38,865 nt of DNA. It comes from Pseudomonadota bacterium. GTDB taxonomy: Bacteria > Pseudomonadota > Gammaproteobacteria > Xanthomonadales > Rhodanobacteraceae. Both the position numbers and the translations under genes were made by a program. Shown here in pieces: positions 1 to 8,642 of this stretch; within the stretch, counting starts at the first letter, position 1, and every line of letters begins with the position of its first letter. The notes beneath the pieces were generated by a model. The model was not told the DNA's origin and searched no databases. It worked only from the letters and a program-made list of their open reading frames with translations. The DNA lies in contig JAJYQO010000009.1 of the NCBI GenBank assembly GCA_021794575.1, positions 1-38,865 of the forward strand, given 5' to 3'.

Positions 1-92
1 TGTTCCTGGCAATTAAAGTCGCGAATTAGGCGCCGCGGTTTTCGCTGCCCTGAGCACGTCCTCCTTCTTGCTTGACCGCAAGAAGTCGCGAA
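1..92 (+). repeat. Left end: terminal inverted repeat plus one internal core copy
   Basis: Bases 1-25 are the reverse complement of 1110-1134. The core AAGTCGCGAA lies at 16-25 and recurs in the same orientation at 83-92, 67 bp further in. The second copy overlaps the 3' arm of a perfect 8-bp hairpin (64-71 with 78-85, loop TTGACC). Widely spaced sites at this end contrast with tightly packed ones at the right end, the same asymmetry as between Tn7L and Tn7R. The host flank and any target duplication lie outside the window. Confidence 0.75.
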
Positions 93-3037: not shown

Positions 3038-4045
3038 TCACGCGCCGTAGTAGCCGCTGAACCAGCGCACGAAGCGGGCGATACCGTCCTCGATGCCCAC
3101 GCGCGGTTGCCAGCCGGTGGTCGCGCGCAGCGCCGAGACGTCGGCCCAGGTGGCCTCGACATCGCCCGGCTGCATGGGCAGCAGATGTTTTTCCACCGTG
3201 CGGCCCAGCGCCCGTTCGAGCAGTTCGATGAAGCGCAGCAGTTCCACCGGCGCATCGCCGCCGATGTTGTAGATGCGGAACGGCGCGTCCGAGCGCGCCG
3301 GGTGCGGGTGCAGCGGGTCGTAGGCGGGATCGGGCGCGGCCGGCCGGTCCAGCACCGCCAGCACGCCCTCGACGATGTCGTCGATGTAGGTGAAGTCGCG
3401 CTGGTGCCGGCCGTGGTTGAACACTTGCAGCGGTTCGCCGCGCTGGATGCGCCGGGCGAACAGGATCGGCGACATGTCCGGTCGGCCCCAGGGCCCGTAC
3501 ACGGTGAAAAAACGCAGGCCGGTGGCCGGCAGCCGGTACAGATGGCTGTAGGCGTGCGCCATCAGCTCGTTGGATTTCTTGGTGGCCGCGTACAGGCTCA
3601 CCGGATGGTCCACAGCGTCGGCTTCGCTGAAAGGCAGCTTGCGGTTGGCGCCGTACACCGAGCTGGACGAGGCGAACACCAGGTGCTGCACCGCGCCGTG
3701 GCGGCAGGCTTCGAGCATGTTGCCGAAGCCCACCAGGTTGCTCTGCACGTAGGCGCCGGGGTTGGTCAGCGAATGGCGCACACCGGCCTGCGCGGCCAGA
3801 TGCACCACGCGTTCCGGGCGGAACTGCGCGAAGGCCTCGCGCACTGCGGCGCCATCGGCGATGTCGAGGCGCGCGTGCCGGTAGCCCGGATGCGCGGCGA
3901 ACCGGTCCAGCCGCGCCTGCTTCAGTGCCGGGTCGTAGTAATCGTTGTGGTTGTCGACGCCCAGCACGTGCTCGCCGCGAGCCAGCAGGCGCTCGATCAG
4001 CGCTGCACCGATGAACCCGGCCGCGCCGGTGACCAGAATGCGCAT
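3038..4045 (-). CDS. UDP-glucuronate 4-epimerase-like NAD-dependent epimerase
   Basis: This 335-residue extended short-chain dehydrogenase has the Rossmann motif GAAGFIG (residues 7-13), an HLAAQAGVR strand, SSSSVYG with the active-site Ser, and the catalytic Tyr152-x3-Lys156 in YAATKKS. The downstream FFTVYGPWGRPDM and NHGRHQRDFTYIDD are typical of the CapI/LspL group, which interconverts UDP-glucuronate and UDP-galacturonate for capsule, O-antigen or LPS. UDP-glucose 4-epimerase or another UDP-sugar specificity cannot be excluded. It is upstream of glmS in the same direction with a 53-nt gap, so they may be cotranscribed; both supply nucleotide-sugar pathways. It is divergent from the thrS operon. 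Confidence 0.85.
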   Translation of the reverse strand: MRILVTGAAGFIGAALIERLLARGEHVLGVDNHNDYYDPALKQARLDRFAAHPGYRHARLDIADGAAVREAFAQFRPERVVHLAAQAGVRHSLTNPGAYVQSNLVGFGNMLEACRHGAVQHLVFASSSSVYGANRKLPFSEADAVDHPVSLYAATKKSNELMAHAYSHLYRLPATGLRFFTVYGPWGRPDMSPILFARRIQRGEPLQVFNHGRHQRDFTYIDDIVEGVLAVLDRPAAPDPAYDPLHPHPARSDAPFRIYNIGGDAPVELLRFIELLERALGRTVEKHLLPMQPGDVEATWADVSALRATTGWQPRVGIEDGIARFVRWFSGYYGA

Positions 4046-4101
4046 GTGGTAGCGGCCTGGGAAATGCGCAAAGTCTATCAGCGCCGTGCCTCGCGCCGCC
4101 G

Positions 4102-4130
4102 TTGACAGCGCGCGGGCCGCTGGCTAGCGT
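4102..4130 (+). promoter_or_regulatory. Candidate promoter of the thrS leader
   Basis: A perfect -35 TTGACA (4102-4107) is followed after 17 bp by TAGCGT (4125-4130), a weak -10. Transcription would start near 4137 and give a leader of about 150 nt before thrS. That length fits the leader ORF and hairpins described below. Confidence 0.5.
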
Positions 4131-4188
4131 GAAGCAGTGTTTCCGCGATCCGGGTGGCGTGCGGGCAACCGTGCGCCGAGCGTGCGAC

Positions 4189-4206
4189 ATGAGCACTACG
4201 TTCTGA
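4189..4206 (+). CDS. Putative thrS leader peptide, Met-Ser-Thr-Thr-Phe
   Basis: A five-codon ORF (ATG AGC ACT ACG TTC TGA) carries two consecutive threonine codons and ends 30 nt before a terminator hairpin upstream of threonyl-tRNA synthetase. In-frame GTG codons at 4159 and 4171 could extend it to 15 or 11 codons; the 15-codon form would add a third Thr codon. No strong ribosome-binding site is visible, which is the main weakness. If translated, it would sense charged tRNA-Thr, as the leader peptides of amino-acid operons do. It is a hypothesis based on position and codon content. Confidence 0.4.
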
Positions 4207-4219
4207 TCCCATCCGTCAC

Positions 4220-4256
4220 GCGTCGCGCCGGCCAGGGGCGTTCGACGCCCTTTTTT
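4220..4256 (+). terminator. Intrinsic terminator with overlapping antiterminator in the thrS leader
   Basis: The terminator is GGGCGT (4236-4241), loop TCG, ACGCCC (4245-4250), then six T residues (4251-4256). An alternative 10-bp hairpin pairs GCGTCGCGCC (4220-4229) with GGCG (4237-4240) and CGACGC (4243-4248), leaving a TT bulge. It uses the same bases as the terminator, so the two are mutually exclusive. The layout, promoter, Thr-Thr leader ORF, antiterminator, terminator, then thrS, is that of a transcription attenuator. No other gene on this strand needs a terminator here. Confidence 0.65.
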
Positions 4257-4288
4257 ATCGCCCGCAATTTGCTTTGGAACGCACCGCC

Positions 4289-6193
4289 ATGATCCAGATC
4301 ACCCTCCCCGACGGCAGCCAGCGCGGCTACGACCATGCGCCCAGCGTGCGCGAAGTGGCGGCATCGATCGGCCCCGGCCTGGCCAAGGCGGCGCTGGCCG
4401 GTCGCGTCGACGGCAAGCTGGTCGATCTCGGCCGCGCCATCGAGCACGATGCCAGGCTCGAAATCATCACCGAAAAAAGTCCCGAGGCACTGGAGATCAT
4501 CCGCCACTCCACCGCGCACCTGCTGGCGCAGGCCGTGCAGCGCCTGTTTCCCGGCGCGCAGGTGACCATCGGTCCGGTCATCGACAGCGGTTTCTATTAC
4601 GACTTCGCGTACCAGCGGCCGTTCACGCCCGAGGATCTGCCGCGCATCGAGGACGAGATGCGCAGGATCGCCGCCGCGGCGATTCCGCTGGATCGCGCGG
4701 TGAAATCGCGCGACGACGCGGTGGCTTTCTTCGAGGGAATCGGCGAGCACTACAAGGCCGAGATCATCCGCGCCATCCCCGCGCACGAGGAACTCTCGCT
4801 GTACACCCAGGGCGAGTTCACCGACCTCTGCCGCGGCCCGCATGTGCCGGACACCGGCCGGCTGAAGGCGTTCAAGCTGCTCAAGGTGGCCGGTGCCTAC
4901 TGGCGTGGCGACAGCAGTAATCCGATGCTCAGCCGCATCTACGGCACGGCGTTTCTCAACGAGAAAGACCTCAAGGCTTACCTGCACCGGATCGAGGAAG
5001 CCGAAAAGCGCGACCACCGCAAGATCGGCAGGGCGCTGGACCTGTTCCATCTGCAGGAAGAAGGCCCGGGACTGGTGTTCTGGCACCCCAAGGGCTGGTC
5101 GATCTGGCAGGTGGTCGAGCAGTACATGCGCAGCGTGTATCGCGACACCGGCTATGGTGAGGTGCGCTGTCCGCAGATTCTCGATGTGTCGCTGTGGCAG
5201 AAGTCCGGCCACTGGGACAACTATCAGGAGAACATGTTTTTCACCGAGTCGGAAAAGCGCACCTACGCGGTCAAGCCCATGAACTGCCCGGGCCACGTGC
5301 AGGTGTTCAACCAGACGCTGCACAGCTATCGCGATCTGCCGATCCGCTACGGCGAGTTCGGCGCCTGCCACCGCAACGAGCCCTCGGGGGCGCTGCACGG
5401 CATCCTGCGCGTGCGCGGCTTTACCCAGGACGACGGCCACATCTTCTGCACCGAGGCACAGATCGAGTCCGAGGTGGCCGCATTTCACCGCCAGGCGCTC
5501 GAGGTCTACGCCGATTTCGGCTTCAGCGACATCCAGGTCAAGATCGCGCTGCGCCCGGACAAGCGCCTGGGCGACGACGCCACCTGGGACAAGGCCGAGC
5601 ATGCGCTGCGCAGCGCGCTGCGCGGCACCGGCGTGGAATGGCACGAGCTGCCGGGCGAGGGCGCCTTCTACGGTCCCAAGGTCGAGTACCACCTCAAGGA
5701 CGCCATCGGCCGCACCTGGCAGCTCGGCACCATGCAGGTCGATTTCATGATGCCGGGCCGCCTCGGCGCCGAATACGTGGACGAGCACAGTCAGCGCCGC
5801 CATCCGGTGATGCTGCACCGGGCCATCGTCGGTTCGATGGAACGTTTTATCGGCATCCTGATCGAGCACCATGCCGGCGCCTTTCCGATCTGGCTGGCCC
5901 CCGTGCAGGCGGTGGTGATGAACATTACCGATGCGCACGCGGCCTATGCCGCCGAGGTGGCGCAAGCGCTTGTCCGGCAAGGTTTCCGCGTCGAAGCCGA
6001 TTTGCGCAACGAAAAAGTGGGCTATAAGATTCGCGAACACACGTTGCAGCGCGTGCCCTATCTGCTGGTGGTCGGCGACCGCGAGAAGGAAACGGGCGCG
6101 GTTGCCGTGCGCGCGCTGAGCGGCGCGGACCTCGGCAGCATGCCGCAGGTCGGATTTGCCGCACGCCTGGCCTCGGAGAACAAACCGGCCTGA
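4289..6193 (+). CDS. thrS: Threonyl-tRNA synthetase
   Basis: This class II synthetase charges tRNA-Thr. The 634 residues contain an N-terminal TGS domain (1-60), the editing domain with HSTAH (His73, His77) and CRGPHVP, and the catalytic core with zinc ligands Cys333, His384 and His510 matching E. coli Cys334, His385 and His511. Motif 2 is in [12 protein letters not shown], motif 3 in [10 protein letters not shown], and a C-terminal anticodon-binding domain follows. I chose the ATG at 4289, 9 nt after GGAA (4276-4279); a TTG five codons upstream would give an unusual N-terminus. It is the first gene of the translation operon and lies 32 nt after the leader terminator, which probably controls it. 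Confidence 0.97.
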
Positions 6194-6229
6194 CCGGTTC
6201 CGGGTTCATTGATCCACGGAGACATCACG

Positions 6230-6757
6230 ATCGCTACGCCCACCGAAAACAAGTCCCACCGTCGCAATCTCGAGATCCGCGTGCCGCGTGTGCGCGTGAT
6301 CGACGCCGAAGGCCAGCAGCTTGGAATCCTCGGCCGCGACGAGGCGTTGCGTCTGGCACAGGAAGTCGAGATGGATCTGGTCGAGATCCAGCCCACTGCC
6401 GATCCGCCGGTGTGCCGCATCATGGATTTCGGCAAGTTCCGCTTCGAGCAGCAGAAAAAGGCCCAGGCGGCCAAGAAAAAGCAGAAGCAGGTCGAGATCA
6501 AGGAACTGAAATTCCGTCCCACCACCGATGTCGGCGATTACCAGATCAAGCTGCGCAATCTGCTGCGCTTTCTGGACGAGGGCGACCGCGTCAAGGTCAA
6601 TATCCGCTTCCGCGGGCGCGAGATGTCGCACCAGGAGCTGGGGTACGAGCTGGCCAAGAAAATCCAGACCGACGTGGTCGAGCAGGGCGTGATCGAGCAG
6701 TTTCCCAAGCTCGAGGGGCGCCAGATGATCATGATGATCGCGCCCAAGAAGAAATAA
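6230..6757 (+). CDS. infC: Translation initiation factor IF-3, probable AUC start
   Basis: IF-3 binds the 30S subunit and checks start codons. The N-domain (NRR-like [17 protein letters not shown]), lysine-rich linker ([22 protein letters not shown]) and C-domain ending [10 protein letters not shown] are clear, about 175 residues. No ATG or GTG lies near the N-terminus in frame. GGAGA (6218-6222) lies 7 nt before ATC (6230-6232) and 4 nt before ACG (6227), so AUC at 6230 is the best start. A TTG at 6209 lies upstream of that Shine-Dalgarno sequence. Rare starts (AUU in E. coli) are the known basis of infC autoregulation, because IF-3 itself discriminates against them. The gene follows thrS by 36 nt. 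Confidence 0.95.

Positions 6758-7153: not shown

Positions 7154-8642
<1,489 letters not shown>

Follow-up and report, generated by a model that had tools for sequence, protein, structure and literature searches.

A probable threonine-responsive transcription attenuator upstream of thrS in Lysobacterales

Results

The thrS locus and its promoter

In the 38,865-nt stretch of DNA analyzed here (the window), thrS encodes a threonyl-tRNA synthetase (ThrS) whose closest named relatives, among the matches listed, are from Lysobacterales. The gene and the features predicted upstream of it are as follows.

4102 to 4130, + strand: promoter, with -35 TTGACA (4102-4107), a 17-nt spacer, and -10 TAGCGT (4125-4130)
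4143 to 4228, + strand: candidate anti-antiterminator (helix 1:2), a part of 4143-4160 pairing with a part of 4213-4228
4152 to 4157, + strand: Shine-Dalgarno-like site GGGTGG, for which most relatives have AGGTGG; P1 lies between it and the leader ATG, and it also forms the core of segment 1
4156 to 4177, + strand: hairpin P1, GGCGTGCGG / GCAA loop / CCGTGCGCC
4178 to 4188, + strand: conserved GAGCGTGCGAC, directly 5' of the leader ATG (alignment A1)
4189 to 4206, + strand: leader ORF MSTTF (ATG AGC ACT ACG TTC TGA), with Thr codons 3 and 4 at 4195-4200
4220 to 4248, + strand: antiterminator (helix 2:3), GCGTCGCGCC at 4220-4229 with 4237-4240 and 4243-4248, and a UU bulge
4236 to 4256, + strand: intrinsic terminator (helix 3:4), stem GGGCGTTCGACGCCC at 4236-4250 followed by TTTTTT at 4251-4256, listed by the scan
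4289 to 6193, + strand: thrS (threonyl-tRNA synthetase, 634 aa), start ATG at 4289

The long ORF adjacent to the leader region on its 5' side (3038-4045) is on the opposite strand, so the leader is not simply the tail of a + strand neighbor; on the same ground, we rejected the idea that the terminator is the end of such a gene. Of 16 scanned loci, six (L033, L035, L037, L047, L087, and L094) have a tRNA gene whose end is within about 250 nt on the 5' side of the thrS leader, and leader and tRNA may be cotranscribed there; none was found near the thrS leader in the window. Directly 3' of thrS, in the region 6190-6260 of the window, begins infC, which we named from gene order and from the sequence by eye, and which apparently starts with a non-standard codon, ATC after GGAGACATCACG. 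Given this position, infC and the genes further 3' may have the thrS attenuator in common. Further downstream, a strong terminator-like hairpin (7556-7585) precedes pheS (assigned by gene order). No Phe-rich mini-ORF was seen ahead of that hairpin, and in this it is unlike the enterobacterial pheST attenuator.

An earlier reading of the locus from its sequence alone (the sequence-only reading) had proposed a TTGACA promoter, and TTGACA is indeed present where it had put it, with TAGCGT as the best -10 box. The pattern TTGACN-16..18-TANNNT was found upstream of the leader in 51 of the 86 testable loci, a count that includes duplicate leaders, against 0.1 expected from letter shuffles; a stricter sigma-70 scan of the window listed no promoter here. 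The predicted transcription start is near 4137, which would put the leader ATG about 50 nt inside the transcript.

The leader ORF and its threonine codons

Our sample comprised 110 thrS loci, 30 of them from 61 genomes and 80 from contigs of named genomes among the matches listed. We called a leader type I, the type of the window, if GAGYGTGYGACATG was present upstream of thrS with at most two substitutions. By this definition, 96 of the 110 loci have a type I leader (duplicates included), and 93 of the leaders are distinct; identical leaders were removed for the counts of distances, folding, codons, permutations, and Shine-Dalgarno matches that follow. Codon 3 specifies Thr in every one of the 93 distinct leaders (ACT in 85, ACC in 3, ACG in 3, and ACA in 2) and codon 4 in 76 of them, while a single Thr codon is present in 12; codon 2 is freely variable. 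The ORF has five to nine codons in 92 of the 93 leaders, and eight in 66. A short ORF with codons for the cognate amino acid thus stands ahead of thrS, with synonymous variation at codon 3. This agrees with the mini-ORF Met-Ser-Thr-Thr-Phe of the sequence-only reading, whose Thr codons are at 4195-4200 and recur in the relatives.

A leader start upstream of the ATG was rejected on two grounds. The length of P1 differs among leaders by amounts not divisible by three, and translation from the GTG of GAGYGTGYGAC would run into an immediate stop in the GTGTGAC variants.

A covarying hairpin between the Shine-Dalgarno-like site and the start codon

While the parts listed in the sequence-only reading were borne out, that reading had overlooked P1 (4156-4177), the Shine-Dalgarno-like site, and a likely third helix. 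P1 was assessed in an alignment of 85 sequences (A1), from which identical leaders had been removed and L068 and L082 were left out for too short a 5' side. In this alignment, 92.3% of the cells are paired, and the covariation score was reached by 0 of 500 shuffles. In six of the eight pairs both partners change, a number reached by 23 of 500 shuffles, and sliding the partners drops the paired cells to 23-43%.

In all 91 distinct leaders compared, the anti-Shine-Dalgarno complement has its longest match on the far side of P1, at least 20 nt 5' of the ATG; a 4-nt match close to the ATG is present in 7 of the 91. For this comparison we assumed the usual anti-Shine-Dalgarno sequence, because a search for the 16S 3' end in the window's own genome returned no match. 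That AGGTGG is a Shine-Dalgarno site is supported by five of the six loci of one other family, f12 (L168, L170, L277, L279, and L280), in which GAGGTGG stands directly before the ATG and there is no hairpin. The GAG just before the ATG was rejected as the Shine-Dalgarno site, since several leaders have CAG or TAG there and the longer match beyond P1 persists.

Terminator and competing helices

An intrinsic terminator lies between the ORF and the gene in 88 of the 96 leaders (duplicates included). For the window, the sequence-only reading had described a terminator with six T residues at 4236-4256, a 10-bp antiterminator formed by 4220-4229 with 4237-4240 and 4243-4248, and the exclusion of one by the other through 4237-4248. 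The terminator is found by the scan, the antiterminator arms are complementary at those positions, and 4237-4248 is part of both helices. By scan, there is no terminator in 3 of 10 relatives from the window's genus (L119, genome G010; L125, G001; and L006, G002) or in L111 (G016), which is from the same family as the window. In these four loci the leader start is preserved and codon 3 still specifies Thr; decay or a different mechanism is possible in them.

Judged alone, the leader of the window does not stand out from chance. Its antiterminator duplex (-17.7 kcal/mol) is equaled in 306 of 2000 shuffled spacers, or in 456 of 2000 when half of the terminator 3' arm is left out, and its folding z is -0.30 relative to shuffled sequence. 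What lifts it above chance is conservation in relatives rather than its own fold. Among 83 distinct leaders, pairing with their own antiterminator partner averaged -17.2 kcal/mol, compared with -15.8 kcal/mol with the partners of other leaders. This was reached in 0 of 10,000 permutations, and again in 0 of 10,000 without half of the 3' arm, although these counts are not probabilities, as the relatives are not independent. The mutually exclusive arms therefore appear to coevolve, and the alternative stem proposed in the sequence-only reading is conserved together with the terminator. As a partner of the spacer, the leader's own terminator has a median rank of only 25 among the 83, and own spacers compared with shuffled ones gave a mean z of -0.98, with 9.6% below -2.

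In the window, the duplex energy of the candidate helix 1:2 is -20.2 kcal/mol. The 17 nt that surround the Shine-Dalgarno-like site pair better with their own spacer than with permuted ones (-14.17 vs -13.15; 0 of 10,000 permutations; 86 loci, duplicates included), but with the whole 5' leader there was no signal, as 5430 of 10,000 permutations reach the observed value. Consequently, helix 1:2 is a likely third helix and not a certain one.

Ribosome position and predicted switching

Codon 4 and the antiterminator arm are separated by a median of 21 nt (n = 84; quartiles 16-23). For peptides of 5, 6, 7, 8, and 9 residues, the medians are 22, 23.5, 17, 20, and 25 nt from codon 4, and 16, 14.5, 5, 5, and 7 nt from the stop codon. 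At codons 3-4, a ribosome would leave the arm free, and at the stop of an eight-residue leader it would cover the arm. In snapshot folding of the growing RNA, the mean number of 2:3 pairs was 6.66 with a stalled ribosome, 5.64 with no ribosome, and 2.90 with a ribosome at the stop codon. Stalling gave more 2:3 pairs than no ribosome in 33 of the 83 leaders and fewer in 11.

According to the sequence-only reading, a ribosome at the stop codon would favor termination. The folding model agrees with this for 57 of the 83 leaders, in which stalling gives more 2:3 pairs than the stop codon (fewer in 3), but not for the window, which hardly switches (7.99 stalled, 8.26 with no ribosome, and 7.67 at the stop) because its stop codon is 16 nt before the arm. 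Counted from the first base of the codon in the A site, a ribosome usually protects about 12 nt further 3'; one positioned at the stop codon of the window leader would cover the RNA to about 4216 and leave 4220-4229 free. Either helix 1:2 must then act after the ribosome is released, or this copy is weak.

It could be argued from this poor predicted switching that the leader in the window's lineage is a relic, kept across the order but no longer working as a switch here, particularly as three of ten relatives of the same genus lack a terminator by scan and seven of ten have one Thr codon only. However, in the window and L002-L005 the antiterminator arms are identical letter for letter while the loop and flanks vary, and the terminator with its long T run, the promoter, P1, and the ORF are all kept. 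On balance, we consider a relic unlikely, and a working copy in the window is the likely reading.

Specificity and distribution

Exact GAGYGTGYGACATG was found once each in 21 of 41 genomes, in 20 just upstream of thrS and in one elsewhere (L130). We then searched 151 genomes of the order with a covariance model, R1, that extends from P1 through codon 4. At E 0.01, 53 genomes had matches, and 48 had one strong match each (at least 43 bits), with the remaining listed matches at 25.3 bits or less. All 48 strong matches are 83-234 nt upstream of thrS, on the thrS strand, so an element that marks many operons was rejected. By family, strong matches were found in 23 of 25 genomes of f1, all 24 of f2, and one of f4. 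Family f1 is probably Rhodanobacteraceae, as the leader of its locus L011 is identical to that of L048, which is from a named Rhodanobacter.

For the other families of the order, we obtained 79 loci out of 95 matched genomes outside f1 and f2, and for other gammaproteobacterial orders, 79 loci out of 104 matched genomes. A repeated-Thr ORF of different appearance is present ahead of a terminator in 44 of the 79 loci from the other families of the order: f3, 3 of 3; f4, 7 of 8; f5, 4 of 4; f6, 0 of 1; f7, 1 of 1; f8, 17 of 19; f9, 3 of 17; f10, 2 of 19; f11, 1 of 1; and f12, 6 of 6. Excluding f9 and f10, the eight further families have Thr leaders in 39 of 43 loci; L275, from f4, has a type I leader. 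In 99 loci of the class and order (10 of 109 were left out because the ThrS N-terminus was not recognized), Thr was repeated in ATG mini-ORFs ahead of a terminator more often than any other residue, in 20 loci, with Ser next, in 9. A Thr mini-ORF before a terminator was present in 4 of the 79 loci from other orders (L200, L208, L209, and L228), and we take these four for chance.

The start regions of these leaders differ. In f3 and most of f4 (L162-L167 and L271-L274), a purine-rich site is followed by GTAG, a small hairpin whose paired changes were judged by eye, CACGATCAC(C/G), and ATGACGCGA or a near variant. This second leader design, with CACGATCAC and then ATGACGCG after the short hairpin, was also noted in L037, L056, and L094; as in the window, the Shine-Dalgarno-like site and the start codon have a hairpin between them. 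In f8, translation would start 4-9 bases after a TANAAT element in 12 of 15 loci, close enough that these leaders are probably leaderless. The same spacing ahead of a Thr leader start was seen in L281-L283, L286, L288-L292, L295-L297, L307, and L313, whose leader peptides are apparently leaderless.

In type I leaders, conservation covers about 35 nt 5' of the ATG, seemingly beyond what a plain ribosome-binding site needs. These parts could serve another signal instead, such as a protein that binds P1 and GAGYGUGYGAC, with the ORF providing a baseline only. We think this quite improbable, because the Thr leaders of other families have different or apparently no 5' parts, and their common core is the Thr codons and the terminator.

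Absence of an E. coli-type operator pattern

In E. coli, thrS is controlled by translational self-repression at an operator (PMC11088916), and the sequence-only reading was in line with this in setting the window apart from E. coli. An E. coli-like operator sequence was found upstream of thrS in 27 of the 79 loci from other gammaproteobacterial orders. The pattern, written after we had viewed the sequences of those orders, matched none of the 79 loci from the remaining families of this order (0 of 19 and 0 of 60). Among the 110 loci of the type I set it matched two, L060 and L084, both without a type I leader. There is no match in the window, and no anticodon-like hairpin sequence of the E. 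coli type was found there before the thrS start. A looser test, for a hairpin with CGT in its loop, does not discriminate between these groups (31 of 79, 3 of 19, and 30 of 110). With the pattern distributed in this way and only 38 nt between the terminator hairpin and the thrS start in the window, self-repression by ThrRS on an anticodon-like hairpin that blocks the ribosome seems highly unlikely here, even though it is the described control of E. coli thrS and the looser hairpin fails to separate the groups. In L060, a Rhodanobacter MAG, a seemingly degraded type I leader is followed, after the terminator, by an operator-like CGT-loop hairpin, which may be chance or a trace of both controls.

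Discussion

Taken together, the comparisons make it probable that thrS is preceded by a threonine-responsive, ribosome-mediated transcription attenuator, which is well supported for much of the order and likely works in the window copy. This was the overall proposal of the sequence-only reading, in which the observation is confirmed and the interpretation is largely supported by comparison. That support extends to the ORF with its Thr codons, the promoter, the terminator, helix 2:3, P1, and the link to thrS. Translation of the ORF, stalling, termination in the cell, the roles of helix 1:2 and P1, and the size of the response we infer from these parts, in the following way. Transcription would begin near 4137, and a ribosome would translate the very short leader, with P1 probably looped out so that the Shine-Dalgarno-like site and the ATG are brought together. 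When charged tRNA-Thr is scarce, the ribosome would halt at codons 3-4, with about 20 nt still to go to segment 2 (4220-4229). Left free, segment 2 would pair with segment 3 (4237-4248), the terminator would be blocked, and thrS would be transcribed, perhaps with the genes behind it. With charged tRNA-Thr available, the ribosome would finish the peptide and, in most relatives, cover segment 2 at the stop codon. After its release, and in the window mainly then, segment 1 in the Shine-Dalgarno region would pair with segment 2, and the terminator would form.

Ribosome-mediated leader-peptide attenuators control amino-acid operons and pheST in enterobacteria. Like the predicted leader of the window, these have a short ORF with cognate codons, an antiterminator and a terminator that exclude each other, and a third, competing helix. 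The window type differs from them in its target, thrS, in its leader, which mostly has five to nine codons and Thr already at codons 3-4, and in P1, which splits the Shine-Dalgarno-like site from the ATG, while the site itself seems to double as segment 1. The E. coli operator acts on the same gene and also ties control to the supply of synthetase and tRNA, but by protein-mediated translational repression. T-box leaders, which are found ahead of synthetase genes in Firmicutes, bind tRNA directly and have no leader peptide. They resemble the attenuator proposed for the window in that termination in the leader answers to uncharged tRNA. However, Rfam gave no match of 4050-4320 to a T-box or any other family up to E = 5, and none at the gathering threshold, and in 16 related loci it matched tRNAs only.

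A parallel is reported from Streptomyces lividans TK24, in which thrS is preceded by thrL (MKRVRPFLETTPGFVPAR), described as leaderless, as unclear in its termination, and as lacking a U-rich stretch (PMC8079986). As in the window, its peptide has two adjacent Thr codons, but this is an actinobacterium, the leader is leaderless, and both peptide and architecture differ; the window, with its leader ATG about 50 nt inside the predicted transcript and a typical terminator, is not of this type. A survey of attenuators names threonyl-tRNA synthetase once in its main text, for E. coli, and "thrS" is absent there (PMC2965389). Among the papers listed in our literature searches, which covered few subscription journals and little of the older comparative work on attenuators, we found no thrS attenuator in Lysobacterales and no mapped transcription start for thrS. 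The former agrees with the statement in the sequence-only reading that none had been described for this group.

The E. coli gene is a standard example of translational self-repression by an operator that mimics tRNA. More tentatively, and as something we regard as possible rather than probable, Lysobacterales may have replaced the thrS operator with Thr attenuation and rebuilt the leader start region several times, and the hairpin-split site in the window may itself be a switch. If so, the versions of the start region would include a Shine-Dalgarno site, covarying hairpin, and ATG (in two unlike forms), a plain Shine-Dalgarno site, and no 5' leader at all. The switch would join the Shine-Dalgarno site to the ATG for initiation and, when free, would serve as segment 1 and seal the antiterminator, so that the rate of initiation would be sensed as well as stalling. 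The window type would also be a compact natural case in which a conserved hairpin stands between a Shine-Dalgarno site and its start codon. If most of the order, including Xanthomonas, Stenotrophomonas, and Lysobacter, controls thrS by stalling ribosomes on a very short peptide, in most cases five to nine residues long, the control of one essential gene would have changed its principle within one class, and the families of the order would display alternative designs.
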